This document shows, piece by piece, positions 33,945 through 52,332 of a stretch of 64,000 nt of DNA; the first letter of the stretch is position 1; each line of letters begins with the position of its first letter. The DNA lies in NCBI RefSeq assembly GCF_029360705.1, contig NZ_JARKMX010000001.1, positions 248,001 to 312,000 on the forward strand. The letters run 5' to 3'. The notes beneath the pieces were generated by a model. It was not told where the DNA came from and made no database searches. It saw nothing but the letters and a program-made list of their open reading frames with translations. Source of the DNA: Paraflavitalea pollutisoli (GTDB lineage Bacteria; Bacteroidota; Bacteroidia; Chitinophagales; Chitinophagaceae). The position numbers and the translations under genes are program-made.

Positions 33945-34292
33945 GCATAGACAATATTTCATTTGCATGGCGTGGCCCCAGAGCCGCGCCGTTTTTGTGT
34001 TAGCTACTGTTGTTCATAATGGTCAACACGTCTCTGTTTATCGTCGACTGTTCAACTGCCTGGCACTGTGAATGGTTATCCTCCTAAGCAGGAGGCCAGA
34101 TCTGCCACTCCTTCCATCACTCGGTGGGAGCAAAAAAAGTTTGTGCCCGTTCGCCGGTACAAATGTCCCGGCCGTCGATACTCAGGTAGTTTTGGGCATG
34201 TTCTCGTTAATTTCTGATTAAAGTACCACACAAGTTTCCCACAACCCCGGCGTCTAACTTTTTATCATTCGAACATTTTATATACAACCTGC
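33945..34292. other. Intergenic region of 348 bp
   Basis: The helicase terminator at 33969-33996 opens it. I see no other gene, perfect promoter box or strong hairpin before the outer-membrane protein gene at 34293. Confidence 0.4.
33969..33996 (+). terminator. Helicase gene terminator
   Basis: 8-bp stem (33969-33976 with 33983-33990, one G-T pair), 6-nt loop, then G and five T. Confidence 0.75.
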
Positions 34293-37271
34293 ATGAGCAA
34301 GATATTGACCCTCTTGATTTTATTGATTGGATTGGGAAGCGCCGCCCTGGCACAGAAGGGTGTTGTGAAAGGTAAGCTCGCCGATTCCACCTTTAAGGAA
34401 ATACTGTCCGACGCTACTGTTACCATATTGGATATCAAAGACTCTTCGATAGTCGCCTTTGTTATTTCCAACGCCAAAGGCGAATTCCAACTGAATAATA
34501 TTGATACCGGTTCTTTCCGGTTAACCGTTAGCTACCAGGGATACCAACCCATTTCCCGGCGTATCACCATCAAGACAGACGCACCGATCCTCGATCTTGC
34601 TACCCTATACATGGATAAAAAGTCGACCCTGCTAGATGAAGTGATCGTGGAGGCCCCACCGATCCAGGTCAAGAAGGATACGGTAGAGTTCAAAGCCAGT
34701 GCCTTCAAGACCAAGCCCAACTCCACCGCGGAAGACGTACTGAAAAAAGTGCCTGGTATGCAGGTGGATAAAGATGGTAATGTAAAAGCCCAGGGCGAAG
34801 ATGTTCAAAAGGTGTACGTCGATGGTAAAGAGTTTTTTGGCTCCGACCCCAAATTGGCTACCAAGAATATCACGGCCGATATGATCGAGTCGATCCAAGT
34901 ATTTGACGACATGAGTGATCAGGCCAGGTTTACCCGTATCGATGATGGTAGCCGTGCAAAAACTATCAACATTCGGTTGAAGAAAGATAAACGAAAAGGA
35001 TATTTCGGCCGCGCCGTTATGGGTGGTGGCTATAGTGAAGAAAACAAAGACTTCCGCTACGATGGAAGTTTCAACTTCAGCCGTTTTAATGGCGATCGCC
35101 GTATTTCGATCCTCGGCCAGGCCAACAACATCAATAAACAAAGCTTCAGCTTCAACGACATCTCTGGCGGCGGCGGCGGTGGATTTGGCGGTGGTGGATT
35201 TGGTGGCGGAGGTTTCGGCGGCTTCGGTGGCGGCGGCGGTGGTGGCTTCCGTGGCGGTGGTGGCGGCGGCGGTCGCGGTGGGATGGGCTTTGGCCTGTTG
35301 TCCAGTGGCGCTACCGGTGGTATCACCAAAACCTTGTCGGGAGGTATCAACTACACCGATAAATGGTCCCCCAAGATAGACGTTACCGGAAGTTATTTCT
35401 ATTCCAATACCAACAACCATGCTGAACAAACGATCCGTCAACAAACGGATCTCAGCAAAAGTCTTGGTGGTAAGGTTGTGCCCGACTCTGCCTCCGTGCA
35501 AACCGAACTGGCAGCTACAGATACCAAAAACCAAAACCACCGTTTTAGTCTGCGTTTGGAAGCAGCGATCGATTCCATGAACTCGATCCTGTATACCCCC
35601 ACGGCTACTATCCAACGGTCACAAACGTTCAATGAACAGATCGATACCATCTATCGGTATTCACCTGCCAACGGTGGCAACTACCGCGCGAATACCATCA
35701 ATACCGTGAGCAGCAATGAACGGGAGGGGTATAATATCAACAACAACCTGTTGTACCGCCGGAAATTCGTTAAGCCCGGAAGAACCTTTACCCTGGGCCT
35801 AAACAACAGTATTAATAATAATACCACCAATGGTCAGACCTGGTCACCCATACGCTCGTACGATTTTGCCGGTAATATCATCCAGGATTCACTCCAGGAC
35901 TTCATCAGCACGGCCAAGACCAAGTCGATGAATACGGTAGTGAGCACCTCGTACACCGAACCCATTGGGCACAACAAGATCCTGGAGTTGAACTATGCCT
36001 ATACCAATAGTCATAGCACATCTGACCGGGTAGCCTACAACTACGATAGCCTGGGCAGCAAAGGATACACTATCCTCAACCTGGCACAGACCAACTATTT
36101 CGAAAGCGATAACATCAAGCACCGTGGCGGCGCCAATTTCCGGATACAAACGACCAAGTATAATTTCCAGATTGGTGGTGCAGTCGAATACTCCGACATC
36201 ACTAACCATACCATTCGCCCGCTCACGGCGAGAGATACAACGGTGCAGCAGAGCTTTTTGAATTTCCAGCCCATTGCGCGCTTGAACTTCACCTTTACGC
36301 GTACCAAGAACCTGCGTATTTCTTATCAGGGACGCACCAACCAGCCCAGCATCAACCAATTGCAGGATGCTCCTGATTTCTCGAGCCAATTCTCCGTTAC
36401 CAATGGTAACCCGTTCCTGAAGCAAGAGTATTCCAACAACGTGAACGTAAACTATAGCTCGTTCAACATCTCTACTTTCAAGCTGTTTTCGGCCAACCTG
36501 AACTTCAGCAACACCAGCAATAAGATTGTTAACAACGTAGATACAGTTCCCGAAAGGTTCAAGAAATTCAACAACACACCAGGTGCACAATACATCGTTC
36601 CTGTGAACCTGAACGGGTCGTTCAATGCATCGTCTTTCATCACCCTGGGGCTGCCGCTGAAAGGTGTACTGAAAGGAAGTAACCTGAACTTCAACAACAA
36701 TGCCTCGTACAACCGCAACGCAGGTATCCAGTCGGGCCAAACCTACTTCACCAACAGCTTTGTAGTAACACAGACCGCCAGTGTGAACATCGATTACAAA
36801 GGCCTGAATGTAGGTGTGAATGGTAGCTTTACCTACAACAATATTACCTATTCCGGTAACTACAGCGGAGCAGCTGCGCAGACCTACTACACACAGAACT
36901 ATGGTCTCGACCTCAGCTATACCTTCCTGAAGAGAATTGTCTACTCGTCCGACTTTGACTATATCATCAACACAGGCCGCGGTGGCGGATTCGATCAGAA
37001 TATTCCGCTGTGGAATACCAGTATTGCCATGCAGGTGCTGAAGAATAAAAACGGAGAGATCAAGTTGTCCGTGAATGACCTGCTCAACCAGAACCAGAGC
37101 ATCAACCGCACAGTAGACGGTTTGAACATCAAGGATACCCGTTCGCTGGTGTTGAAGCGCTACTTCATGCTGACATTTACGTACAACCTCAACAGGGCCG
37201 GTCAGCAACAGCAACGTGGCCAGGGCGGACCTGGTGGAGAAATGCCCCGTCAGTTCAGAATGCGTAACTAA
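34293..37271 (+). CDS. Outer-membrane beta-barrel protein with Gly-rich insertion
   Basis: 992 aa, signal peptide ending LAQ. A CarboxypepD_reg-like domain covers about residues 22-105 (VVKGKLADSTFKEILSDATVTIL), then a plug-like region (VLKKVPGMQVDKDGNVKAQGEDVQKVYVDGKEFFG), then a barrel of the OMP_b-brl_3 type. Residues about 292-332 are almost only Gly with spaced Phe and Arg, a low-complexity loop absent from the paralogue at 38481. No partner SusD is present. Substrate is unknown; TonB dependence is likely but a clear TonB box was not identified. Confidence 0.9.
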   Translation: MSKILTLLILLIGLGSAALAQKGVVKGKLADSTFKEILSDATVTILDIKDSSIVAFVISNAKGEFQLNNIDTGSFRLTVSYQGYQPISRRITIKTDAPILDLATLYMDKKSTLLDEVIVEAPPIQVKKDTVEFKASAFKTKPNSTAEDVLKKVPGMQVDKDGNVKAQGEDVQKVYVDGKEFFGSDPKLATKNITADMIESIQVFDDMSDQARFTRIDDGSRAKTINIRLKKDKRKGYFGRAVMGGGYSEENKDFRYDGSFNFSRFNGDRRISILGQANNINKQSFSFNDISGGGGGGFGGGGFGGGGFGGFGGGGGGGFRGGGGGGGRGGMGFGLLSSGATGGITKTLSGGINYTDKWSPKIDVTGSYFYSNTNNHAEQTIRQQTDLSKSLGGKVVPDSASVQTELAATDTKNQNHRFSLRLEAAIDSMNSILYTPTATIQRSQTFNEQIDTIYRYSPANGGNYRANTINTVSSNEREGYNINNNLLYRRKFVKPGRTFTLGLNNSINNNTTNGQTWSPIRSYDFAGNIIQDSLQDFISTAKTKSMNTVVSTSYTEPIGHNKILELNYAYTNSHSTSDRVAYNYDSLGSKGYTILNLAQTNYFESDNIKHRGGANFRIQTTKYNFQIGGAVEYSDITNHTIRPLTARDTTVQQSFLNFQPIARLNFTFTRTKNLRISYQGRTNQPSINQLQDAPDFSSQFSVTNGNPFLKQEYSNNVNVNYSSFNISTFKLFSANLNFSNTSNKIVNNVDTVPERFKKFNNTPGAQYIVPVNLNGSFNASSFITLGLPLKGVLKGSNLNFNNNASYNRNAGIQSGQTYFTNSFVVTQTASVNIDYKGLNVGVNGSFTYNNITYSGNYSGAAAQTYYTQNYGLDLSYTFLKRIVYSSDFDYIINTGRGGGFDQNIPLWNTSIAMQVLKNKNGEIKLSVNDLLNQNQSINRTVDGLNIKDTRSLVLKRYFMLTFTYNLNRAGQQQQRGQGGPGGEMPRQFRMRN
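35168..35283 (+). repeat. Gly-rich low-complexity coding repeat
   Basis: Tandem GGC/GGT codons interrupted by TTT/TTC encode GGGF-type units inside the outer-membrane protein. Repeat-driven length change is plausible. Confidence 0.8.
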
Positions 37272-37300
37272 AAGGAATTTCCCCCTTCACATAGTAGCAG

Positions 37301-37319
37301 GCCTCCTTCGGGAGGCTTT
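37301..37319 (+). terminator. Terminator of the Gly-rich outer-membrane protein gene
   Basis: GCCTCC-TTCG-GGAGGC hairpin at 37301-37316 followed by TTT and T-rich sequence. Confidence 0.75.
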
Positions 37320-37348
37320 GCTGTTTTATAGGATGCCCCGGCCAGGAT

Positions 37349-37380
37349 AAAAACAAAAGCCCCCCGTTTACACAGGGGGC
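37349..37380 (-). terminator. Minus-strand intrinsic terminator
   Basis: GCCCCC (37359-37364) pairs with GGGGGC (37375-37380). Read on the minus strand the stem is followed by CTTTTGTTTTT. It has no T-run on the plus strand, so it implies a minus-strand transcript from the right. Confidence 0.65.
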
Positions 37381-37481
37381 CAGCACATACTGATTGTGGT
37401 TTCAGAGGTAAGTGCTGAACTATATGAACCTGGCAATGCGCCGCAGTAAGCACGCCTGGTGGTTGTCATGCACTGAATTGG

Positions 37482-37652
37482 TTAGTGTTGGTGTAAACGG
37501 TATTTAGTAATGGGAGAAGATATGGGAGACCTGCCAACCATCAGAACGGCTAAAAAGCTTCTGACGATCCGGACAATGTTGGAAGACGGGCGGTAGATAT
37601 CTTTATGGATCCTGGCCCGGCGGGTGTCATAATACATGGTATTTTTCTGCAT
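37482..37652 (-). CDS. Candidate small basic protein, 56 aa
   Basis: A frame from ATG at 37652 to TAA at 37482, too short for usual cut-offs. It starts MQKNTMYYDTRRARIHKDIY, has an Arg-rich centre and a short hydrophobic stretch (SFLAVLMVG). The minus-strand terminator 102 bp beyond its stop supports transcription of this strand. No family is recognised, and codon evidence at this length is weak. Confidence 0.4.
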   Translation of the reverse strand: MQKNTMYYDTRRARIHKDIYRPSSNIVRIVRSFLAVLMVGRSPISSPITKYRLHQH

Positions 37653-37797
37653 GGAATAGTGGATTTAGGAACAAAAGTTTAGGATTAACCCACATTCAAC
37701 GACGCTTTAATTGTTTTATTGTGTACCCCGCAAAAAAGTAGATTTCCTATTCCATCTGACCGACGGAATGTGTACTTTTCGTTAATAAATCCGTTCC

Positions 37798-38361
37798 ATG
37801 AAAAAGATATTCCTGCTCCTGTGGTTAGCTGCCTGCAGCGTTTCCGGTCAAGCGCAGGGCGTTTTTAGCACAAAAACCACCACCGCACTCCAAAAGGTCA
37901 TTGAAGATTATCCCAACCGGTTCAGGAACATAAAAGGTGATCGCCTGGCCGAGCATACCCGGACTGTCGATTACCACTCACGTGTCGTCATTGCGGGTGC
38001 CGCCAATCCCGTTATTACTCAATACAGCACCTCCCCCAAAGAACAATTTGCGTGGAGCTGCGAGCTGGCACGATCAGATAGCTTTGAAAGAGCCAGGACT
38101 ACTTTCCAGGACCTGTTCAACCAGATCTCCAATACCATCATCAAGATAGAGGGCGAAAAGCCTTTCATTCTGAACGGAAAATACCAGGTGCCCGAAGCTG
38201 GTAAGAAACTCCATGCAGTGCGGTTCGAATTACTTTCGGCCCCCGAAGCGGTGCTGACCCTCAAAGTAGAGCTGACGCTGCAATACACCACCGAGTGGAA
38301 GATCATACTGGCTGTGTATGACCAGGAGAAACAATATGATGTAGCCATGCAACAGCCCTGA
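37798..38361 (+). CDS. Secreted protein of unknown function (187 aa)
   Basis: Signal peptide about residues 1-20 (AACSVSGQAQ); the Cys is not in a convincing lipobox. The mature part is alpha/beta with regular strands (KLHAVRFELLSAPEAVLTLKVEL) and no recognised family or catalytic motif. It lies between two paralogous outer-membrane proteins on the same strand, 119 bp before the second, so it may work at the envelope with them. Confidence 0.75.
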   Translation: MKKIFLLLWLAACSVSGQAQGVFSTKTTTALQKVIEDYPNRFRNIKGDRLAEHTRTVDYHSRVVIAGAANPVITQYSTSPKEQFAWSCELARSDSFERARTTFQDLFNQISNTIIKIEGEKPFILNGKYQVPEAGKKLHAVRFELLSAPEAVLTLKVELTLQYTTEWKIILAVYDQEKQYDVAMQQP

Positions 38362-38480
38362 CTGGTAACCCCGCGCATTATTTATTAACCTTCATTAACA
38401 TTAAAGCAAGGCTGGTTAACCTGCTTTCCATGCCGGTACTAATAATTTCGTAGCACTAAATCTTCGAAAAAAGAACCGGC

Positions 38481-41300
38481 ATGAAAAACGTCTACCTGCT
38501 TATAATAACCTGTCTTGGCTGTTTGGCTGCGATGGGGCAAAAGAACGGATCGGTAAAGGGTGTGCTTTACGATACTGTGGCCAAACAACCGGTGGTCTCC
38601 GCTACCATCACCATCCTGCAGAAAAAGGATTCGGCCCTGATTTCATTCACCATGTCCGATAGCAAGGGCCGGTTTGAAGTATCCGGTCTGGCCAATGGGG
38701 ACTACCGGCTGCTGATCACCCATGTTAATTACCACGGCAGCAATAAATACTTTTCGATAGCGGATGCCCATAAGAACAATGACCTGGGAAACGTGGTCAT
38801 GCGTGACGCCTCGCAAATGCTCGACGAGGTGGTGGTCACTGCCGAAGCACCGCCTGTAACACTTATCGGCGATACGGTCCAATACAATGCCGGCTCCTTT
38901 AAAACCCCACCTAACGCCAATGTAGAACAACTGCTGAAGAAGATGCCGGGCATCCAGGTAGAAAAGGATGGAACCGTAAAAGCACAGGGGCAGGAAGTAA
39001 AGCGGGTACTGGTTGATGGCAAAGAGTTCTTTGGCGCAGACCCCAAGATCGCCACCAAAAACCTGCCATCCGATGCCGTAGATAAGGTGCAGGTCTACGA
39101 TAAAACCAGCGACGCTGCCCAGCTCACTGGCTTCGATGACGGCAATAGCGAAAAGACCATCAACCTCAAACTTAAAAAAGACAAGAAGAAAGGCCTTTTC
39201 GGGAAAGCATCTGTGGGCGGAGGTACCGCAGACCGCTATGAGGGCCGTTTCAACGTCAACTCCTTTAAAGGCGCGCGGCAACTGTCGGTGATCGGGTTGG
39301 GCAACAATACCAATGCGGAAGGCTTTTCATTCAGTGACATGCTAAGTTTCTCCGGGGCATTAAACAATGCACGGCAGAATGGCGGGGTCATCACCCTTTC
39401 GGGCAGCGAGGCTGCCATGGCCGGATTTTCTGGTCTCAATAACAACAACAGTATTCGCACCATCTGGGGAGGTGGCCTCAACTACAACAATATCATCGGC
39501 AACAATACAGACTTCACGAGCAACTATTTCTACAACAGGTATAGCCCGATGATCGAAAAAGAAACCCAGCAACAAAACTTCCTGCCAGATGGCTCCACGT
39601 TAACCCGCCTGGCCAATAGCGTTACCAACAATACCAACAACAGTCACCGGGTTAACCTCGGCGCAGACATCCGGCTTGATTCTTTCCATTCCATTAAGAT
39701 CTCGCCTTCGCTGGGCTACCAATCGTCTGAGAACAACGTAGCCAGCCGGTATGCTACCCGCAACCAGAACGGTGTGCTGGCCAATGAAGGATTCAACAAC
39801 AGTTTGTCTAATAGCAATGGCTATAATTTCCGCAACGATATCCTGTTTCGGAAACGCTTCCGCACCCGGGGCCGCACCTTATCACTCAGCTTGCAGACCA
39901 ATTTAAATGCCAGCGATGGAGACGGAGAGCAGTTGTCGGTCAATAAATTCTTCAACCCCGATGGTACTGCTTTGAGGACCGATTCCATCAACCAGCACAA
40001 CGCATCCAGCAACGACCTGCGTAGTTATAATATACGGGCGGTTTATACAGAGCCCATTATGAAGAATACCTTGCTCGAGTTCAGTGTCAGCAATAGCCAG
40101 AGCAAAAGCACCTCCGAGAAGACGACCTGGGATTATAACAAGCTCAGCGGAAAACATGATGCCATCAATGAAGACCTGTCCAATCATTACGAGAATACCT
40201 ATGGCTTCACCAATGCAGGTATCCGCTGGCGCAGTCAGTTTAAGAAATGGAATTTTGCAATAGGTGGCAACTGGCAAAAGGCAGACCTGGAAGGAAGTAT
40301 CATTGCGGGCACCAAAGACAGCCTCATCAACCAAACCTTTAACAATGTGCTACCCAGCGCACGGTTCCAGTACAACTTCACCAAGTTCAAGAACCTGCAG
40401 ATCAATTACAACACCAGCACCAACCAGCCCACGATGACCCAATTGTCACCGGTACCGGATATCAGCAATCCCCTCAATATCCGGGATGGTAATGCTTCTT
40501 TGAAACAGGAGTATACACAAATGGCCAGTATTAATTTTATGTCGGTAAACCCGTTCAAAAACAGGAACCTTTTTGCCTTCGTCAACCTACGGCAAACCAA
40601 CAATAAGATCGTCAACTACGATACCATCAATGCCCAGGGGGTGAAGCGAACAAGGCCAGTCAACGTCGACGGTGTGTACAATGTGAATGGCAGTATTAGT
40701 GTGGGATTACCAGTACGTTTCCTGAAAGGCTCGGTGAATGTATCTTCTAATTTTGGTTATGACCGGGGCAAGCAATTCATCAACGGGGTGGGTAATACAA
40801 TCAATACCGCAACAGCCGGCCCCTCCATCCGGGTAGACATGAACCCCAGTACTAAATTTGATGTGTCGCTGAATGCAGGCATCAACTATAACCGCAGTTC
40901 CTATTCCCTGCAATCCAGCCTCAACACCACTTATTTTTCACAGAACTATGGCAGTGAGGTCAACTGGCAATTGCCCAAAAGCTTCTACTTCAACACAGAA
41001 TTCTCCTATACTGTCAACAACCGGCTGGCCAATGGATTCAACCTGCGTGTGCCGTTGTGGAATGCCTCCATCAGCAAGCAGTTTCTGCGGTTCAATCGCG
41101 GTGAGCTGAAGTTGTCGGCCTTCGATATCCTGAATGAAAACGTCAACGTAAGCCGGAGCAGCAATCAGAATTACATAGAGGATAGCCGCATCACTACCTT
41201 GCGCAGGTATTTCCTGCTGTCCTTTACTTATAGCCTCAGCAAGATGGGCCTTGGCCCTGCAGGAGGGGCAGGTGGTAATGGCATTCGTATTACCCGTTAA
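38481..41300 (+). CDS. Outer-membrane beta-barrel protein, paralogue of 34293-37271
   Basis: 939 aa, signal peptide ending MGQ. Same layout as the upstream paralogue: CarboxypepD_reg-like domain (SVKGVLYDTVAKQPVVSATITIL, about residues 22-105), plug-like region with LLKKMPGIQVEKDGTVKAQGQEVKRVLVDGKEFFG, then an OMP_b-brl_3-type barrel ending in FLLSFTYSLSK. The Gly-rich loop of the paralogue is replaced by an Asn/Ser/Ala-rich segment. The pair looks like an old tandem duplication with the 187-aa gene between. Terminator at 41334. Confidence 0.9.
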   Translation: MKNVYLLIITCLGCLAAMGQKNGSVKGVLYDTVAKQPVVSATITILQKKDSALISFTMSDSKGRFEVSGLANGDYRLLITHVNYHGSNKYFSIADAHKNNDLGNVVMRDASQMLDEVVVTAEAPPVTLIGDTVQYNAGSFKTPPNANVEQLLKKMPGIQVEKDGTVKAQGQEVKRVLVDGKEFFGADPKIATKNLPSDAVDKVQVYDKTSDAAQLTGFDDGNSEKTINLKLKKDKKKGLFGKASVGGGTADRYEGRFNVNSFKGARQLSVIGLGNNTNAEGFSFSDMLSFSGALNNARQNGGVITLSGSEAAMAGFSGLNNNNSIRTIWGGGLNYNNIIGNNTDFTSNYFYNRYSPMIEKETQQQNFLPDGSTLTRLANSVTNNTNNSHRVNLGADIRLDSFHSIKISPSLGYQSSENNVASRYATRNQNGVLANEGFNNSLSNSNGYNFRNDILFRKRFRTRGRTLSLSLQTNLNASDGDGEQLSVNKFFNPDGTALRTDSINQHNASSNDLRSYNIRAVYTEPIMKNTLLEFSVSNSQSKSTSEKTTWDYNKLSGKHDAINEDLSNHYENTYGFTNAGIRWRSQFKKWNFAIGGNWQKADLEGSIIAGTKDSLINQTFNNVLPSARFQYNFTKFKNLQINYNTSTNQPTMTQLSPVPDISNPLNIRDGNASLKQEYTQMASINFMSVNPFKNRNLFAFVNLRQTNNKIVNYDTINAQGVKRTRPVNVDGVYNVNGSISVGLPVRFLKGSVNVSSNFGYDRGKQFINGVGNTINTATAGPSIRVDMNPSTKFDVSLNAGINYNRSSYSLQSSLNTTYFSQNYGSEVNWQLPKSFYFNTEFSYTVNNRLANGFNLRVPLWNASISKQFLRFNRGELKLSAFDILNENVNVSRSSNQNYIEDSRITTLRRYFLLSFTYSLSKMGLGPAGGAGGNGIRITR

Positions 41301-41333
41301 GTATAGCCAGAAAACAACCCTTACACCATCCAG

Positions 41334-41365
41334 CCAGGCCCGCCATCGCGGGCCTGGTGCTTTTT
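41334..41365 (+). terminator. Terminator of the second outer-membrane protein gene
   Basis: Perfect 10-bp stem (41334-41343 with 41348-41357), 4-nt loop, then GTGC and five T. Confidence 0.85.
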
Positions 41366-41377
41366 AGTATATAAGTT

Positions 41378-41407
41378 TTGCCGGTTGGGCAAACAATAAT
41401 ACTTTTG
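41378..41407 (+). promoter_or_regulatory. Promoter of the TPP-riboswitch operon
   Basis: TTG at 41378-41380 (within TTTTG), a 19-nt spacer, TACTTTTG at 41400-41407. Transcription should begin near 41412, just before the riboswitch. Confidence 0.65.
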
Positions 41408-41413
41408 ACTACA

Positions 41414-41492
41414 CATGCATCGGGGTGCCTGAACAAGGCTGAGATGATACCCGGGAACCTGATCTGGTTAATACCAGCGGAGGAAATGCAAC
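41414..41492 (+). promoter_or_regulatory. TPP (THI-box) riboswitch
   Basis: All core elements are readable: GGGGTGCC (41422-41429), AAGGCTGAGATGATACCC around 41435-41452, AACCTGATCTGGTTAATACC (41456-41475) and CAGCGGAGGAAATGCA. P1 forms from TGCAT (41416-41420) and ATGCA (41486-41490). The pyrimidine-sensor CTGAGA and pyrophosphate-sensor regions are intact. The class binds thiamine pyrophosphate and usually represses. Confidence 0.96.
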
Positions 41493-41560
41493 AGGCTCGT
41501 CGTATATTTTATTAATATAGTAAGCCACATTTCCTGCACAGGTAATGTGGCTTTTGTTTT
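41481..41560 (+). terminator. Riboswitch expression platform: antiterminator and terminator
   Basis: Terminator: AAGCCACAT (41522-41530) pairs with ATGTGGCTT (41545-41553), followed by a T-rich run. Antiterminator: AGGAAATG (41481-41488, the 3' side of the aptamer and P1) is complementary to CATTTCCT (41528-41535), which overlaps the 5' arm of the terminator. With TPP bound, P1 forms and the terminator is free, so expression stops. Confidence 0.8.
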
Positions 41561-41576
41561 AACAAAATACGGCGAT

Positions 41577-42281
41577 ATGGATATACAACACTTTACTACC
41601 GACCTTACCAACTGGCAGGGGCGTAAGGAATGGTTCTTCAACCGCGAGCATACCGACACTTATGAACAATGGTATGAAGGCCGCTATAAAAGGGCCGAAA
41701 TATGGCAGAAGAAAGTCATCGGTGGCCTCATCAAAAAAGACAACCGCGTAAAAACCTTATTGGAGTTTGGTTGCGGCACTACCCGCTTCACACGATGGTG
41801 GCACCAGATCGGCATCGAGGCAACCGGCGGCGATATCTCTCCTTTCATGTTGGGGCAAGGTGTTCACCTGTTTGATGGAAACCTCGTGCTGGCCGACTCA
41901 CACCACATGCCATTCAAAGACCACACATTCGATGCGCTTGCTTTCATCACCACCTTCGAGTATTACCGCGATCCGGTAAAAGTAATCCGTGAGGCAGCCC
42001 GGGTAGGGAAGTACGGTATCGTATTCGGCATGATGAACCGCAACTCTACCAAAGTCGTCAGACGAAGGGTGCAACAACTGTTTGGGAAGAATCCATTCTA
42101 CATCACAGCTACTTTTTATACACCCGCTGCTTTGAGCGCAGTGATCCGCGAGGCTTTGCAAGGCAGGGACTATTCGATTGAGTGGACCTGTACTGGATTG
42201 CCTGCCTGGTTTCCTGTACAACAATGGGGTGTTCCGTATGGAGATTTCTTTGGCCTGCACGTTCAATTCAATGACGTATGA
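41577..42281 (+). CDS. Class I SAM-dependent methyltransferase, TPP-riboswitch operon
   Basis: 234 aa, cytosolic. Motif I is LLEFGCGTTRF near residue 63, motif II GGDIS, then ADSHHMPFKDHTFDALAFITTFEYY as in UbiE/methyltransferase-11 proteins. The start at 41577 follows the riboswitch terminator; an upstream GTG frame begins inside the terminator stem. Its stop overlaps the next gene's start (ATGA). No thiamine-pathway enzyme of this class is standard, so its substrate is open. The Trm112-like gene at the end of the operon may encode its partner. It is repressed by TPP as the first gene after the riboswitch. Confidence 0.9.
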   Translation: MDIQHFTTDLTNWQGRKEWFFNREHTDTYEQWYEGRYKRAEIWQKKVIGGLIKKDNRVKTLLEFGCGTTRFTRWWHQIGIEATGGDISPFMLGQGVHLFDGNLVLADSHHMPFKDHTFDALAFITTFEYYRDPVKVIREAARVGKYGIVFGMMNRNSTKVVRRRVQQLFGKNPFYITATFYTPAALSAVIREALQGRDYSIEWTCTGLPAWFPVQQWGVPYGDFFGLHVQFNDV

Positions 42282-43342
42282 CAGCCCTCTTTTCCAGTGG
42301 CGGTAAGATCGTTGACGCCAGTTTTCAGCGTACCATCTACCCGCAATGTGGTACGCCGCGAAACGAAGTGGTGGCAGGTCCTGCATATGGCGTAGATGTA
42401 TCCATCATTCAGCTGCCCAATGGGCTGGATATGGCGCTTACCAGCGACCCGCTATCGCTGATCCCCACACTTGGTTTGCAGGAGTCGGCCTGGTTGTCGG
42501 TACACCTGATGGCGAATGATATGGCCACTACGGGCGTTGCTCCCATGTATGCCCAGTTGGTATTAAACCTTCCCGAGCATACGACCATGCAGCAATTCGA
42601 AACTTACTGGCAGCATATTCACCAGTATTGTGCCGGCATCGGCGTGGCGATCACAGGTGGACATACCGGCCTGGCTGTTGGGCAACATTCTACACTGGCA
42701 GGCGGCGGTACCATGGTGGCCATAGCGCCGGCAGGTACGATGTTGTTGAGCAGCTATGCCCAACCAGGCGACACCATTGTGCTTACCCAGGAAGCGGCGA
42801 TGCTTTCAACGGCCATACTCGCCATGAGCTTTCCCAACATAGTACAAGACCAATGTGGCCAGGAAAATTACCTGCATGCCTGTGACATGTTTTATAAAAC
42901 CAGTTCGCTGGAAGCAGGACTGGCGGCTGCGGCTTTTAATACCTGTGACCGTGGTGTTTCGGCCATGCACGATGTAACCGAAGGAGGTGTGCTGGGGGCT
43001 ATCTACGAGATGGCGCAAGCTGCTGGCCTCGGTGCAACCGTCGATGCCGACAGGATTCCCGTGGGGGTGGCACAGCAAACTATTGCCCGGTTATTTGACT
43101 TAGATCCTTTGTACATCGTTGGGGCAGGTGCGATGATCATGTCAGTTGCCCCGGATGAAGCGGAAAACCTGATCCATTCGCTGAGCGGGAAAGGTATCCG
43201 GGCAACAGCCATCGGGTCTTTTACCAGTAGCAAATCGGTCAACCTCACCCGACATGGCAGCGGACCAGAGCTATGGAAGTATCCTGGTGCCGACCCCTAC
43301 TGGGCAGCCTATTGTAACGCACTCAACAACGGATGGACATGA
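42278..43342 (+). CDS. AIR synthase-related protein (PurM/HypE/ThiL-like)
   Basis: 354 aa. The PurM/SelD/HypE/ThiL two-domain ATP-binding fold is indicated by DMALTSDPLSLIPTLGLQESAWLSVHLMANDMATTGVAP, where the Asp and NDMAT correspond to the NDLA metal/ATP motif, and by ITGGHTG and AMHDVTEGGVLGAIYEMA. Members phosphorylate or activate amide, carbamoyl or phosphate groups with ATP. It is not a typical ThiL: the N-terminal D-D motif is not clear and sequence is closer to generic AIRS-related proteins. It overlaps both neighbours by 4 and 10 bp, so translation is coupled. Substrate is unknown. Confidence 0.88.
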   Translation: MTALFSSGGKIVDASFQRTIYPQCGTPRNEVVAGPAYGVDVSIIQLPNGLDMALTSDPLSLIPTLGLQESAWLSVHLMANDMATTGVAPMYAQLVLNLPEHTTMQQFETYWQHIHQYCAGIGVAITGGHTGLAVGQHSTLAGGGTMVAIAPAGTMLLSSYAQPGDTIVLTQEAAMLSTAILAMSFPNIVQDQCGQENYLHACDMFYKTSSLEAGLAAAAFNTCDRGVSAMHDVTEGGVLGAIYEMAQAAGLGATVDADRIPVGVAQQTIARLFDLDPLYIVGAGAMIMSVAPDEAENLIHSLSGKGIRATAIGSFTSSKSVNLTRHGSGPELWKYPGADPYWAAYCNALNNGWT

Positions 43343-43989
43343 GTAACAAAAGAAGAAAGATCAACGGTGGACTGTACCTGGTCGTCGATCCGGCTACGGG
43401 CGAAGACTATTTGCTGCCGGCCCTGCGGTCCGCCATGGAGGGTGGCGTAGATATCGTGCAGATCTGGGATCATTGGCTGCATGGGCAGGATAAGCGCTCA
43501 TTGGTATCGAAAATATGCGCCCTGGCGCACCAACACGATCTTCCGGTATTGATCAATGAAGATTGGTCATTGGCGCAGGATACCCAATTGGATGGTGTGC
43601 ACTTCGACGAGCCGCCTGCTGATCTTGCCTCCATCAGGGCATTGGTTGGTCGTGACCTACTGATCGGTATTACCTGTGGTAATGATCTGGAGAAAGTAAC
43701 CTGGGCCGAAAGCAACCAACTGGATTACATTTCCTTTTGCTCCATGTTCCCTTCCACTTCGGCAGGCACCTGTGAGTTGGTGACCATTGAAACGGTACAG
43801 GCGGCACGCCGTATTACTGCCCTGCCTATTTTCCTGGCAGGTGGTATTACGCTCGACAATCTACCGGGACTGGTGGCCACACCTATGAATGGCATCGCCG
43901 TGATCAGTGGCATCATGCGTGCAGCAGATCCAGCCAAGGCTTCGGCTGCCTATAAACAAACTCTAGTACAGCAATTAAAACAACGATAA
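43333..43989 (+). CDS. ThiE/TenI-like TIM-barrel protein with altered active site
   Basis: 218 aa; start at 43333 or at the Met two codons on. The frame fits thiamine-phosphate synthase: GLYLVVD, VDIVQIWDHW, LPVLINEDW, LDGVHFDE, LLIGITCG, LDYISFCSMFPSTSAG, IFLAGGI, and GIAVISGIM. Compared by eye with B. subtilis ThiE, Arg59 and Lys61 read Trp45 and His47, Asp93 is Glu, Asp112 is lost and Lys159 is Ala, while Gln57 and Asn92 persist. The residues that hold HMP-pyrophosphate are thus mostly gone. It may act as a TenI-like tautomerase or on another substrate; a plain ThiE call would mislead. Confidence 0.82.
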   Translation: MDMSNKRRKINGGLYLVVDPATGEDYLLPALRSAMEGGVDIVQIWDHWLHGQDKRSLVSKICALAHQHDLPVLINEDWSLAQDTQLDGVHFDEPPADLASIRALVGRDLLIGITCGNDLEKVTWAESNQLDYISFCSMFPSTSAGTCELVTIETVQAARRITALPIFLAGGITLDNLPGLVATPMNGIAVISGIMRAADPAKASAAYKQTLVQQLKQR

Positions 43990-43991
43990 TC

Positions 43992-44228
43992 ATGCAACCA
44001 TCATTGCTCGATAAACTGGCTTGCCCGATGGATAAGGGCGATCTGTCGCTGAACATTTATACCCGCGACACAACAGGAAATATTATTGAAGGTATGCTGC
44101 ATTGCGCCCACTGTAATCGGCAGTATCCGATCATTTACGGGTTGCCCATTCTGGCGCCCGATGAGTACCGCCAGCCCACACTCGAAAACAATATCACCCG
44201 GCACTGGCCCAAAGAACTGACCAACTGA
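43992..44228 (+). CDS. Trm112-like (UPF0434) zinc-ribbon protein
   Basis: 78 aa. It matches the Trm112/UPF0434 pattern: LLDKLACPMDKGDL, then LHCAHCNRQYPIIYGLPIL. The second Cys of the first knuckle is Asp, so zinc binding would use three Cys at most. In eukaryotes and archaea, Trm112 binds and activates methyltransferases; bacterial members are little studied. It is 2 bp after the ThiE-like gene and is the last gene of the operon that opens with a methyltransferase, which suggests a pair. A terminator follows at 44249. Confidence 0.85.
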   Translation: MQPSLLDKLACPMDKGDLSLNIYTRDTTGNIIEGMLHCAHCNRQYPIIYGLPILAPDEYRQPTLENNITRHWPKELTN

Positions 44229-44248
44229 TCGGAGTGCCGTTAAAAGAC

Positions 44249-44281
44249 AACAGGAACCTGCGCAAAGCGGGCTCCTGTTTC
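44249..44281. terminator. Terminator between convergent units
   Basis: AACAGGA (44249-44255) pairs with TCCTGTT (44273-44279), with inner CC/GG pairs. T-rich sequence flanks it on both strands, so it can end the riboswitch operon and the GLPGLI gene. Confidence 0.65.
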
Positions 44282-44316
44282 TATTGGCATGAGAAATGAG
44301 ACTAACTGGTAGCGAT

Positions 44317-45135
44317 CTAGTTCGAGAAGCGAATGGTGCCCCTTGTGTTGGGCGCATTCAATTGCATCTCTTTCATCAGTTTGTTCCTCTCTTCGTCAAA
44401 CTCCTTGCGGGTAACCTTCTTTCCTTTCGAAGGCTCTTTGACCAGGGCTACATCTATTTTAGGAGATACTTCGAGCGCTTTGTAAACGGTACGCCCGTTG
44501 TTGATATCGATGGCCAATACCAGGCCGGGCAACTGACCGGCAAAATCGGGGCTCACGGATACCGGAACCGCCGTGGTAAACCAAGCTGTGATATTCGCGG
44601 TATCCTGCACTTCCTGGCGGGTGGCTTCTCCGTTCGACATACTCATCGTAAACCTGGTAGCGATGCGTTGGGCGATAGCTTGCTGGCATGTGTAACCCAG
44701 TATCTTACGCGTTTCACCGGTCAGCTTCCAATTGAGTTTGGAGATGCTGTCGGCAATCAGGAAATTCTTGGTGCCCAGTTCCCGCTGCTCCACAACAGTA
44801 CTGTTGTTATGGTCGGTATAGGTTACGTCATCCTGACCAGCTGCCATCACCCGCACCTGTAATTGCCTGCCGTCACCACCCACTGCATTTTGAAAAGCCT
44901 GCTCGTCCGATTCATCAGGCGGTAACTGCCGGCGTAAAGACTTCCCATTGGTAAACAAGATCTCCACTTTATCCGTTCTGGTACGCGGAATTGCCTGCTG
45001 CAGTCGTTCATCGCCGCCCTGAAACCGGATGGTCATCTCTACGGTTCTTTCGTATAGTATCTTGCCTTCGGTTTGCTGTGCCTGGGAATTCATTGCACCC
45101 AATAGGGCGAAACATCCTATCCATATCTTTTTCAT
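44317..45135 (-). CDS. GLPGLI-family secreted protein
   Basis: 272 aa from a start at 45135 that opens a signal peptide (MKKIWIGCFALLG, ending SQAQ); the longer frame has no homologous look. The C-terminal half has the family motif QLPGLVLAIDINNG, a variant of GLPGLI, and the Cys-containing GYTCQQAI segment. The family is restricted to Bacteroidota, periplasmic or outer-membrane-linked, function unknown. It is divergent from a two-component system (130 bp apart), so it may be a target. Its -7 box TAGCTTTG lies at 45164-45157. Confidence 0.85.
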   Translation of the reverse strand: MKKIWIGCFALLGAMNSQAQQTEGKILYERTVEMTIRFQGGDERLQQAIPRTRTDKVEILFTNGKSLRRQLPPDESDEQAFQNAVGGDGRQLQVRVMAAGQDDVTYTDHNNSTVVEQRELGTKNFLIADSISKLNWKLTGETRKILGYTCQQAIAQRIATRFTMSMSNGEATRQEVQDTANITAWFTTAVPVSVSPDFAGQLPGLVLAIDINNGRTVYKALEVSPKIDVALVKEPSKGKKVTRKEFDEERNKLMKEMQLNAPNTRGTIRFSN

Positions 45136-45156
45136 ATCGTTGCTTGATTTTGAATT

Positions 45157-45164
45157 CAAAGCTA
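45157..45164 (-). promoter_or_regulatory. -7 box of the GLPGLI gene
   Basis: TAGCTTTG on the minus strand, a perfect TAnnTTTG, about 22 bp before the ATG at 45135. Confidence 0.5.
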
Positions 45165-45185
45165 CAGGGGGGCATCCGCAAGGCA

Positions 45186-45223
45186 GGTTAATACACCTTG
45201 GTTTAATGTTAATTAAGGTTAAA
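45186..45223. repeat. GGTTAAT-like direct repeats in a divergent regulatory region
   Basis: GGTTAAT (45186), GGTTTAAT (45200) and GGTTAAA (45217) stand in the same orientation, 14 and 17 bp apart, between the GLPGLI and histidine-kinase promoters. They are candidate sites for the adjacent OmpR-type regulator. Confidence 0.4.
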
Positions 45224-45251
45224 GCTGCCATCTCTGAAATTGGCAAAAACT

Positions 45252-45259
45252 TACATTTG
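45252..45259 (+). promoter_or_regulatory. -7 box directly before the histidine kinase start
   Basis: TACATTTG, a perfect TAnnTTTG, ends 6 bp before the ATG at 45266, predicting a leaderless or nearly leaderless mRNA. Confidence 0.5.
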
Positions 45260-45265
45260 TAACAC

Positions 45266-46738
45266 ATGTCGGCTATCCGCTCCAAAATATCAGCTTCTTT
45301 TTCGCTTGTGCTCATGGTACTGGCCATCCTGGCCATTGTCATTTTTCAGGGATATTGGCTGCGCAATAACTACCGCGACGAAGTCCAAAACCTCGAGCTT
45401 CGTACCAACTTGCTTTTCAGGGAAACGATCCAGCAGTACCAGATAGAGAAATTGAAGTTGGATACCAACATGAAGTTCCGGGTCACCGACCGTCGCCGCG
45501 ATGCAAATGCCACTTTTGAAACATTCTCTTACAGAGACTCTGTACGGCAGCGGAAGCCACGTATCGCATCAATAGTTTATACACTTAATAAGACTTTTCG
45601 GTCCAATAACCTGGATTCGCTAAAGGGGCATATCAATTCGATCCGGATCGAACCGCCACCTGGAGCAGTAGGGGCTATTACTGCCAGAAGGCAACCCGGA
45701 GATCATATTCTTCAATTTCTGCAGGGTGTTGATTCTCTTCAGGATTCTATCACCGTGAAAGAAGCGACGCTGCGGTATGGTAAGATGCTGCAATCGGAAA
45801 AGCTCTCGATTCCATTTGTCATTTTACGGGAGAATGGTGTCAGCAGCGGACCGGATGAGGTCATCAACGACAACCGGATCACTATGGGTTTTTCGAACCC
45901 CTATACGTTGATTTTGCAATTGGAGAACACGGTACCTTATCTGATCAACAAACTCACCCCGCAGCTACTGGTTTCCTTGTTGCTGATCACGCTCACCATA
46001 TTTTCATTTGTACTGATGTATCGCAGCCTTCGACGGCAACACAAGCTCACCAGGCTAAAGAATGATTTCATCAGCAATATTACCCATGAACTGAAGACGC
46101 CTATTGCCACGGTTAGCGTAGCGATCGAGGCGCTCAAAAACTTTAATGCGCTGCACGATCCGCAACGAACCGCCGAATACCTGGATATCTCTGCCAATGA
46201 ATTGCAAAGGCTGTCCTTGCTGGTGGATAAAGTGCTGAAACTATCCATGTTTGAGAAACAGCAGATCGAGTTGAGTGAAGAGCCTTTCGATCTCAAAGAA
46301 CTGGTCGACGAAGTGGTCGCCTCTATGAGGCTCCAGTTTGAGAAGTACAGGGCCAAGGTAAGCCTGGAAATGCAGGGGAGCGATTTTGTTATCCGCGGCG
46401 ACCGCATGCACATTACCAGCGTGATCTTTAACCTGCTGGATAACGCACTCAAATACAGCAAAGCAAACCCTACGATACAGATCGACCTGGTATCACAACA
46501 GCAGTACGTGGAAATGAGTGTCACTGATAATGGTATCGGTATCTCGGCAGAGTACCAGCGTAAGATATTCGATAAGTTTTTCCGCGTACCGACTGGCGAT
46601 ACGCACAATGTAAAAGGATATGGCCTGGGCCTTAGCTATGTGGCTTACATCATGGATCGGCACAATGGCCTGATCAATGTGGAAAGTCAGCCCGGTATCG
46701 GAACCCGCTTCACCACCAAATTGCCCAAACTCGCATGA
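45266..46738 (+). CDS. Membrane sensor histidine kinase
   Basis: 490 aa. Two membrane segments (about residues 10-32 and 232-252) frame a periplasmic sensor domain with no recognised fold. The kinase core has the phospho-acceptor His near residue 275 in ITHELKTPIATV, N box NLLDNALKYS, G1 DNGIGI, and G2 GYGLGLSYV. There is no HAMP domain, as is common in Bacteroidota kinases. It overlaps the response-regulator gene by 4 bp (ATGA), so the two form a cognate pair. Confidence 0.95.
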   Translation: MSAIRSKISASFSLVLMVLAILAIVIFQGYWLRNNYRDEVQNLELRTNLLFRETIQQYQIEKLKLDTNMKFRVTDRRRDANATFETFSYRDSVRQRKPRIASIVYTLNKTFRSNNLDSLKGHINSIRIEPPPGAVGAITARRQPGDHILQFLQGVDSLQDSITVKEATLRYGKMLQSEKLSIPFVILRENGVSSGPDEVINDNRITMGFSNPYTLILQLENTVPYLINKLTPQLLVSLLLITLTIFSFVLMYRSLRRQHKLTRLKNDFISNITHELKTPIATVSVAIEALKNFNALHDPQRTAEYLDISANELQRLSLLVDKVLKLSMFEKQQIELSEEPFDLKELVDEVVASMRLQFEKYRAKVSLEMQGSDFVIRGDRMHITSVIFNLLDNALKYSKANPTIQIDLVSQQQYVEMSVTDNGIGISAEYQRKIFDKFFRVPTGDTHNVKGYGLGLSYVAYIMDRHNGLINVESQPGIGTRFTTKLPKLA

Positions 46739-47427
46739 GCAAGACCAAAATACTCTACGTAGAAGATGAAATGTTTCTCGGAAAGATCGTCAAGGAAAGT
46801 CTCGAAAGCCGCGGATTTGAAGTGGTGATGGAAAGCGACGGAGCAGATGTGCTGCAGACGTTTAAACGAATCAACCCGGAGGTTTGTGTGCTGGATGTGA
46901 TGTTGCCCAACAAAGATGGTTTTACCCTGGCAGGCGAGATCCGGGAAGTAGATCAGAAAGTGCCGATCATATTCCTGACTGCCAAGACGCAGACCGATGA
47001 CCTTGTCAAAGGGTTTTCTACCGGCGCTAATGACTATATCAGAAAGCCGTTCAGTATGGAGGAGTTGATCGTGCGTATCGACAATGCCATGCGTTACCGC
47101 CGCAATGACCGGCCTATATCAGGCAATCCGGATGAAGTGAAGCTGGGGAAGTTTCAGTTTCACCTCACCCGCCAAACTTTGATGGCCGGCCGGGAAGAAA
47201 AAAAACTATCATTCCGGGAAAGCGAATTGCTCAAATTGCTGTACGAGAACCGGGATAAGATCATAGATAGAAAAGACATACTCACCTTGCTATGGGGCAA
47301 CGACTCCTTCTTCAACTCACGTAATCTGGATGTGTACATCACCAAATTGCGCGGTTACCTGAAAGACGACGATAGCCTCGCCATCATCACCATTAAAGGG
47401 ATTGGCTATCGCTTCATCATTGCGTAA
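46735..47427 (+). CDS. OmpR-family response regulator
   Basis: 230 aa. The receiver domain has the acidic pair EDE near residue 10, the phospho-acceptor Asp in VLDVMLPNKDG near 54, and Lys in RKPF near 104. The C-terminal winged helix has RESELLKLLYENRDKIIDRKDIL and LDVYITKLRGYLKDDDSLAIITIKGIGYRF. It is the partner of the preceding kinase and is convergent with the small membrane-protein gene 9 bp away. The divergent GLPGLI gene is a likely target, inferred from position and the repeats at 45186-45223. Confidence 0.95.
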   Translation: MSKTKILYVEDEMFLGKIVKESLESRGFEVVMESDGADVLQTFKRINPEVCVLDVMLPNKDGFTLAGEIREVDQKVPIIFLTAKTQTDDLVKGFSTGANDYIRKPFSMEELIVRIDNAMRYRRNDRPISGNPDEVKLGKFQFHLTRQTLMAGREEKKLSFRESELLKLLYENRDKIIDRKDILTLLWGNDSFFNSRNLDVYITKLRGYLKDDDSLAIITIKGIGYRFIIA

Positions 47428-47436
47428 TGAACTGCG

Positions 47437-47727
47437 TTAAGGCCTGGCTACAGAAGTCTTGCTGAAGGCAGCGCGCCGTTGCCATACCCACATGATCGTA
47501 AAACTGGGAATGAAATCGAGGCCGGGCAATATTTCCTCTATGAAGTTGAACAAGCCTCCAAAAGCGCCTCTCCATCCACCAAACATGCGGTAGAAAATAA
47601 GGCCGGAGATAGGAGCCCAGATAATATCGCCGAATTCTCCGAGAATCGGCAACGCATAACTGGCATACCCAATGAGATCCAATAAGATACATAAGATCAG
47701 AGAAGGTCTGGCAGTGTTGCTGTTCAT
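47437..47727 (-). CDS. Small membrane protein, conserved in Bacteroidota
   Basis: 96 aa. Several hydrophobic segments: LILCILLDLIGYASYALPILGEFGDIIWAPISGLIFY and PGLDFIPSFTIMWVW. The pattern with GEFGDIIWAPIS and FIEEILPG recurs in many Bacteroidota hypothetical proteins and is shared by no named transporter I know. It is probably integral to the inner membrane; function unknown. Confidence 0.75.
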   Translation of the reverse strand: MNSNTARPSLILCILLDLIGYASYALPILGEFGDIIWAPISGLIFYRMFGGWRGAFGGLFNFIEEILPGLDFIPSFTIMWVWQRRAAFSKTSVARP

Positions 47728-47797
47728 CGGCTGTTAGCGTTTTTTAGGAAGACGCATAAAAGCCGTCAATAGTTGTATCGCCAGCCTCCCGGAACAA

Positions 47798-52156
<4,359 letters not shown>

Positions 52157-52332
52157 GGTTTTTGATGGGATATTCGAATAGTAAATAACTGCAAAACAAT
52201 GATTTCTATTGAACGCCCGCCCGCTTTTTTTCGCAGAATAAGAGATTTACCGTAAAAACACTGCCATAATTCACCAGAAAAGACGGGGTAGGTACTAACA
52301 GGGGCGCTTTTGGCCAACACCAGCACATAACG

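Follow-up and report, generated by a model that had tools for sequence, protein, structure and literature searches.

What does a thiamine pyrophosphate (TPP) riboswitch control when the genes behind it make up no recognised thiamine pathway? The question is raised by a four-gene cassette on the forward strand of a 64-kb stretch of Paraflavitalea pollutisoli DNA (the window, the whole stretch analysed here, in whose positions all coordinates are given). The cassette encodes a class I S-adenosylmethionine (SAM) methyltransferase, a protein of the AIR-synthase/HypE/ThiL fold (AIRS), a ThiE/TenI-fold barrel (ThiE-like) and a Trm112-like zinc protein. We know of no thiamine pathway that uses this set, and no published description of it was found in the openly licensed literature. 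That the four proteins share a single TPP-controlled purpose is hardly in doubt, and the cassette probably supplies, salvages or repairs vitamin B1, when it is scarce, in a manner not yet described. In the form that we favour, at a probability of roughly two in five, it is an undescribed TPP-repressed route that turns a thiamine-related phosphate into thiamine monophosphate (TMP), which ThiL encoded elsewhere in the genome would complete to TPP.

The set is not a chance assembly: we count 85 distinct cassettes, and 84 of these are complete. Our alignments hold these 85 cassettes as 87 rows (L036 equals L104 and L039 equals L082, and the duplicates are included in per-row counts), and 86 of the rows carry the four genes in the same order, the exception (L091) stopping at a contig end. 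Median spacings of the four genes are -1, -4 and -4 bp. The first-pass annotation had proposed a single TPP-controlled unit, an idea that would lose its footing if the four genes mostly occurred without a riboswitch; such a pattern was looked for and clearly failed to appear, a pattern search locating an aptamer core in all 87 rows. At a permissive threshold, Rfam places the TPP riboswitch family RF00059 upstream of the cassette in 4/4 loci, and it scores above gathering in 9 of 11 loci (the remaining two are L041 and L064). A genome-wide Rfam search of 39 cassette genomes put RF00059 on the upstream side of 40/40 cassettes (no more than about 3 kb from the ThiE-like gene, paired by eye from two tables), with 38 above gathering and two below it, at 47.8 in G069 and 54.0 in G228.

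In the window, the aptamer spans 41411-41502 and matches the full model (1-105) at 67.5 bits against a gathering threshold of 54.3, the sole above-gathering Rfam match in the 64 kb. A promoter-like pair read from the sequence, TTTTG at 41376-41380 and TACTTTTG at 41400-41407, lies 5′ of it on the same strand. TACTTTTG fits TAnnTTTG, which we take to be the Bacteroidota promoter consensus, and TAnnTTTG occurs within 45 nt 5′ of the aptamer in 31/87 rows against 2.0 expected from shuffles. An intrinsic terminator at 41522-41560 (-17.0 kcal/mol) follows the aptamer, with a stem formed by 41522-41531 and 41544-41553 and then TTTTGTTTT, and folding of 41405-41570 yields -47.3 kcal/mol (z -2.41 against shuffles). 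The four genes come next, all on the forward strand: the methyltransferase (41577-42281, 234 residues; Methyltransf_11 PF08241, 2.8e-15), the AIRS protein (42278-43342, 354 residues; AIRS_C PF02769, 1.5e-22, and AIRS PF00586, 9.1e-11), the ThiE-like barrel (43333-43989, 218 residues; TMP-TENI PF02581, 8e-37) and the Trm112-like protein (43992-44228, 78 residues; Trm112p PF03966, 5.1e-9). The methyltransferase most likely starts at the ATG at 41577; the GTG of a longer reading frame, at 41547, falls inside the terminator. The first two genes overlap by 4 bp, the second and third by 10 bp, and the last two are separated by 2 bp. Rfam, Pfam and the terminator energy confirm the layout of riboswitch, terminator and four tightly packed genes that had been described at first pass.

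How the switch would operate is suggested by the 3′ strand of the aptamer closing helix, AGGAAATG (41481-41488), a candidate antiterminator partner of CATTTCCT (41528-41535) in the 5′ arm of the terminator; the two are perfect 8-base complements. At low TPP, the unbound aptamer would leave these two segments to pair, no terminator would form and the four genes would be transcribed, and when TPP is bound the terminator would form and transcription would stop. This TPP-OFF logic is a prediction with computational support. A terminator of -10 kcal/mol or better is found 3′ of the aptamer in 58/87 rows, as against 19/435 shuffles. Antiterminator pairing of at least 7 pairs (G-U allowed, 5′ arm alone) occurs in 33 of the 58 strong-terminator rows versus 19% of shuffles, a moderate enrichment. 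Strict pairing over the whole segment was rejected as a general rule, since it reaches at least 7 pairs in just 16/65 rows. Judged by predicted pairing, the window has a clear switching mechanism that does not extend to the rows in general, and in the 29 of 87 rows without a strong terminator by the criterion used, control may act on translation.

TPP riboswitch-controlled operons already described for Bacteroidota, as far as the available text of PMC5613172 goes, include thiSEGCHF-tenI, OMthi and pnuT-tnr3. Those thi operons resemble the cassette in having the same aptamer class directly 5′, in belonging to the same phylum and in encoding proteins of thiamine folds. They differ in that none, as that text presents them, contains a methyltransferase or Trm112, and in that thiC, thiD and thiG are missing from most cassette genomes; the word methyltransferase is absent from the main texts of PMC2211319 and PMC5613172.

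The distribution of the cassette is patchy. Matches to the AIRS protein at E 0.001 or better exist in 116 of 198 phylum genomes, and close matches (E below 1e-90) in 7, the genome's own included, with the next best at 3.4e-16; all seven hold the four genes in identical order. Within the family, 11 of 195 genomes carry the cassette (own included), and in the genus 2 of 3 sampled genomes have it. A one-per-species genome scan with the methyltransferase alignment, from which the best 80 of 204 relatives were taken, found carriers among Chitinophagaceae, Sphingobacteriaceae, cytophagal genera (Pontibacter and Runella among them), flavobacteria (Arenibacter and Salegentibacter among them), Bacteroidales and Balneolales. 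Two Arenibacter genomes have two cassettes each (L059 and L069; L061 and L080), every one with its own TPP aptamer motif, seen by Rfam for the first pair.

Window positions 34001-52200 were compared with six family members, and aligned pieces at least 40 residues long were counted. In L056, L110 and L120 the aligned pieces are confined to the region from the aptamer to the end of the Trm112-like gene; L060 has 5 pieces outside the cassette that are not collinear, and L043 has 39, mostly in upstream receptor-like genes. Long flanks are common to the window and its congener L042 only. No recurrent fifth operon gene emerged from the two nearest reading frames on each side, where no related group spans more than 7/86 loci; the flanking-gene groups are mostly confined to one genus, and a few are common families at varying places. 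Among plasmid records none covers 80% of the methyltransferase (of 8 weak partial matches, the two inspected have unrelated neighbours), and 27 pattern matches in viral contigs included no relative.

Conservation within the cassette is highest in the methyltransferase, with 91 invariant positions over 87 rows and a mean pairwise identity of 78%, followed by AIRS at 55%, Trm112 at 52% and the barrel at 45%. Pairwise distances correlate at 0.71 between methyltransferase and Trm112 and at 0.66 between AIRS and the ThiE-like barrel, with the other pairs at 0.44-0.53, shared species history being uncontrolled. The value for methyltransferase and Trm112 is what a complex would be expected to give, and that for AIRS and the barrel suits consecutive enzymes.

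Which enzymes, then, are these? The AlphaFold model of the AIRS protein (pLDDT 91.3) has HypE as its nearest PDB fold (3vys_C first) and then ThiL. Its best profile match is likewise the HypE model TIGR02124, at 70.6 bits against a cut-off of 251.6, followed by the ThiL model TIGR01379 at 68.7 bits against 184.15; SelD and PurL models also match, and all NCBIfam matches are far under cut-off. Over 81 AIRS members the best E-values are 3.6e-26 (HypE) and 2e-24 (ThiL), which we take to lie under those cut-offs too. With ThiL the cassette protein shares the AIRS fold, membership of an ATP-enzyme superfamily and possibly a thiamine-type substrate. It differs from ThiL in that the GGDT motif, present in the window genome's own ThiL and in L138, is replaced by GGH[TS] in 87/87 rows, with H129 invariant. 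L139, a third ThiL row, lay in a wrong reading frame and is excluded from this comparison. The difference from HypE lies at the C terminus: all 8 confirmed HypE proteins of the phylum (461-489 bits) end in PRIC, whereas the cassette protein carries a DPYW tail and no row of 87 has a cysteine among the last five residues. By these scores and residues, the AIRS protein is a subfamily of its own, neither ThiL nor HypE. A second ThiL was considered as a role for the cassette and rejected, a true ThiL being encoded elsewhere in all 69 genomes of our gene census (39 cassette genomes and 30 cassette-free comparators; L060 stood outside the genome searches).

The barrel tells a similar story. Its AlphaFold model (pLDDT 95.4) finds thiamin phosphate synthase as top PDB folds (1xi3, 2tps), with a TM score of 0.84 and 23% identity to 2tps_A. 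Against the ThiE model TIGR00693 the window barrel scores 129.5 bits, short of the 145.1 cut-off, and because its E-value is the best among them, all 80 of 80 barrels fall under that cut-off. R59, K61, D93, D112 and K159, the pyrophosphate and Mg ligands of ThiE, are kept in 8/8 canonical ThiE proteins from ThiC-bearing genomes of the phylum. In 86 barrel rows R59 is never found (W in 84, Y in 2), nor are K61 (N 54, H 29, G 2, R 1), D112 (P in 73) or K159 (A 53, V 19, S 11, others 3), and D93 is kept in 4 and replaced in 82. Q57, H107 and S/T130 are retained (as Q, H and T) in 86/86 rows, N92 in 80 and the phosphate-loop glycine in 86. Cysteines 136 and 147 are present in 86/86 rows and C115 in 76. 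The barrel, as read from its alignment, has thus lost the pyrophosphate/Mg-site residues of ThiE and kept the pyrimidine and phosphate positions; it shares with ThiE the fold and those retained positions, and is set apart by the replacements and by its three cysteines. The TenI thiazole tautomerases (1yad, 3qh2) have the same fold and likewise no pyrophosphate chemistry, and the TenI model NF005819 matches 80/80 barrels. The window barrel scores just 51.4 bits with it against a cut-off of 251, does better with ThiE and has its own cysteine pattern.

These properties bear on the most ordinary explanation, which takes the barrel for a functional thiamine phosphate synthase, the AIRS protein for an additional TMP kinase and the methyltransferase and Trm112-like protein for passengers. 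Annotation models do rank thiE first for the barrel and hypE and thiL for the AIRS protein. We nonetheless consider this explanation very unlikely: no barrel reaches the ThiE cut-off and R59, K61, D112 and K159 are lost throughout, GGH[TS] stands in place of GGDT in every AIRS row beside a true ThiL in every genome, and the most conserved gene of the set is no passenger. The earlier statement that no known thiamine pathway uses the set holds up, in that barrel and AIRS protein fail both the residue tests and the curated cut-offs of ThiE, ThiL and HypE.

A second ThiE variant lies near receptor or PnuC-like genes in four ThiC-less genomes (L142:5725-6357, L143:8758-9381, L144:5530-6156 and L145:5548-6183). 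It has lost K61 and N92 and kept R59 and K159. In the two of these genomes searched for them, G206 and G211, weak TPP riboswitch matches (about 36 bits, under gathering) occur near it. In L142, L144 and L145 its neighbour starts MSSHHIV-R/K-EKQEP, and the two of these three that were scanned show no Pfam family. The protein beside this variant at L144:4835-5407 was tried as a divergent thiamine pyrophosphokinase (TPK) and dropped, having neither Pfam nor PDB support.

The remaining two proteins would form a methylating pair. The methyltransferase scores 57.1 bits with PF08241 against 21.2, and E63, G65, C66, G67 and T68 of the glycine-rich motif I are invariant in 87 rows. The Trm112-like protein scores 36.4 bits with PF03966 against a gathering threshold of 22; C11, C38 and C41, candidate zinc ligands, are present in 95% or more of 86 rows, and D14 is invariant. 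Its alignment (A4) matches PDB chains 6zxw_H (5e-13) and 6f5z_C (1.1e-9), which we take to be archaeal Trm112. Entry 6f5z, presumably an archaeal Trm112-methyltransferase complex, is the closest known parallel to an operon that encodes a class I methyltransferase together with a Trm112-like protein, and both of its chains are matched. The cassette pair differs in being tied to a TPP riboswitch and two proteins of thiamine folds, and the Trm112-like protein scores 63.9 bits with the archaeal model NF038101, under its cut-off of 77.

We know of no small-molecule job for a Trm112-methyltransferase pair. The substrates of characterised Trm112 partners are tRNA, rRNA and release factor, and the matches of our pair include Bud23-type and archaeal entries. 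Both points favour a TPP-sparing or housekeeping role outside thiamine metabolism, in which the cassette replaces a TPP-dependent step or modifies RNA or protein at low TPP. TPP repression would fit, much as B12 riboswitches control B12-independent isozymes. We regard such a role as unlikely, given that two of the four proteins (AIRS and the barrel) have thiamine-enzyme folds, that the barrel keeps its phosphate and pyrimidine positions, and that the methyltransferase's top NCBIfam models are small-molecule types (UbiE/MenG and BioC), albeit all far under cut-off.

What thiamine supply do the carriers otherwise have? ThiC is encoded in 4/39 cassette genomes and in 5/30 comparators (G002, G012, G017, G021 and G095); in the phylum sample it is found in 67/198 genomes, 42 of these 67 from one distant family (f16), and in 0/7 of the cassette genomes. 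Full-length ThiG (above 300 bits) is present in 3/39 carriers; 22/39 pass Pfam's low 23-bit cut-off, all except 3 via partial matches under 36 bits. No carrier passes the curated 205-bit cut-off for ThiD; the four ThiC genomes score 139-198 bits and the rest at most 63.7, and a distant bifunctional kinase may take the place of ThiD. A second strong ThiE exists in 7/39, leaving the cassette barrel as the sole strong ThiE match in 32/39. TPK (PF04263) is found in 8/39 and absent from 31, and ThiL is over cut-off in 39/39 carriers and present in 30/30 comparators. The window genome (8.76 Mb, listed as 100% complete) follows this pattern, with ThiL, no ThiC, ThiG or TPK match and no ThiD above 30 bits.

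Other TPP riboswitches of these genomes point towards import. Of the window genome's two additional matches, one stands before a TonB-type receptor and the other, under gathering, before a PnuC-like transporter. Another 12 riboswitch stretches outside the cassette, from 11 other carriers, were read by eye: 9 have an approximately 800-residue receptor directly 3′, 1 has a PnuC-like gene there, and 2 show no clear thiamine gene. From the gene census and these receptor and PnuC-like targets, the carriers are mostly importers that finish TPP via TMP and ThiL. ThiL is present in 69/69 genomes and TPK is absent from 31/39 carriers, so TMP would be made from imported thiamine by some other kinase.

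Several gene arrangements were noted around these transport loci. In the window genome (L034:8922-10136), the riboswitch-preceded TonB-type receptor is followed by a DUF6807 protein. A PnuC-like (PnuT-type) transporter followed directly by an acyl-CoA-dehydrogenase-like gene occurs at L035:1718-3475, L143:5140-6872, L144:8410-10138 and in L149. Pfam supports the assignment of both genes in L035 and of the dehydrogenase in L143, and the others were assigned by eye; a TPP riboswitch match under gathering lies 5′ of the pair in L035, L143 and L149. An AAA_28 kinase-like gene lies 3′ of the PnuC-like gene at L142:1849-2379.

The census also excludes simple substitutions. The first-pass annotation had suggested comparing the cassette's presence with thiC: carriers have ThiC in 4/39 and lack it in 35/39. 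The cassette is not a simple ThiC stand-in, since most comparators are without ThiC as well and ThiC coexists with the cassette in four genomes, and the pattern fixes no step. Synthesis or salvage of a modified pyrimidine or thiazole, as suggested at first pass, would be one possible role. Replacement of TPK fares no better as a candidate, since all 5 carriers of family f22 have TPK and cassette-free genomes such as G007, G033 and G091 lack it. With ThiC in 5/30 comparators and ThiL in all, the cassette looks like an addition, not a patch for one missing gene.

The same gaps could be taken to indicate a new de novo branch, in which the cassette makes the phosphate of hydroxymethylpyrimidine (HMP) or of thiazole without ThiC or ThiG, for example by a PurM-like ring closure and a methylation. 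PurM-fold enzymes do close heteroaromatic rings, the operon has a TPP riboswitch with a terminator, 35/39 carriers are without ThiC and without a ThiD above 64 bits, and full-length ThiG is rare. We find this quite unlikely. There is no convincing ThiD, and with no other strong ThiE in 32/39 genomes the joining step would fall to a cassette barrel without its pyrophosphate/Mg site; cassette-free relatives are mostly without de novo genes too, and the four ThiC genomes also have the cassette. Ordinary TMP synthesis is unlikely, because the known enzymes for HMP pyrophosphate are missing in 35/39 carriers and the barrel has no pyrophosphate site.

A supply route ending in TMP from another thiamine-related phosphate is the most economical account, and fits genomes with and without ThiC. 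In such a route, the substrate would be an altered thiamine or precursor half, held as a phosphate, and the product TMP. The methyltransferase-Trm112 holoenzyme would methylate the small molecule, and the AIRS protein would spend ATP on phosphorylating that molecule or on activating a carbonyl. The barrel would hold the substrate by its pyrimidine and phosphate ends and carry out its own step without pyrophosphate or the ThiE Mg site, perhaps via the invariant cysteines 136 and 147. We infer both the step of each protein and TMP as the product. A more specific version, salvage or repair of TMP from an environmental or damaged thiamine compound by a Trm112-activated methyltransferase, an ATP enzyme of the PurM superfamily and a pyrophosphate-free barrel under direct TPP control, is put forward tentatively.

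Methylation, an ATP-using enzyme and a barrel with a thiamine site would suit disposal as well as salvage, and the cassette might instead remove a harmful thiamine analogue or damaged TPP, leaving a dead-end product in place of TMP. Nudix enzymes dispose of damaged TPP. The TPP regulon of B. thetaiotaomicron includes pnuT-tnr3, as given in the available text of PMC5613172, which also counts for this possibility. Damaged TPP would peak when TPP is high, so TPP-OFF control suits supply better than disposal, and we judge detoxification distinctly unlikely.

Several points weigh against a supply route to TMP. The cassette's methyltransferase resembles general methyltransferases, Trm112 partners are known from translation, and the distance correlations are uncorrected for common species history. 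ThiL is found in every one of the 30 comparators and ThiC in few of them, so the cassette completes no missing gene cleanly. Cassette-free relatives must make TMP by an unidentified thiamine kinase, and if carriers do the same the cassette may not be needed for it. Four genomes hold the cassette together with ThiC and with ThiD-like and ThiE genes, which makes it not simply a replacement, and the cassette includes no transporter.

Riboswitches have repeatedly exposed missing steps of cofactor metabolism. Here a well-understood riboswitch class marks a strictly conserved four-gene set of undescribed chemistry. If the Trm112 pair does act on a small molecule, the known role of Trm112 would be widened. 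By its residues, the cassette barrel should not count as a thiamine phosphate synthase, although it is the sole strong ThiE match in most carriers, and predictions of B1 dependence for soil, sediment and marine Bacteroidota would change.

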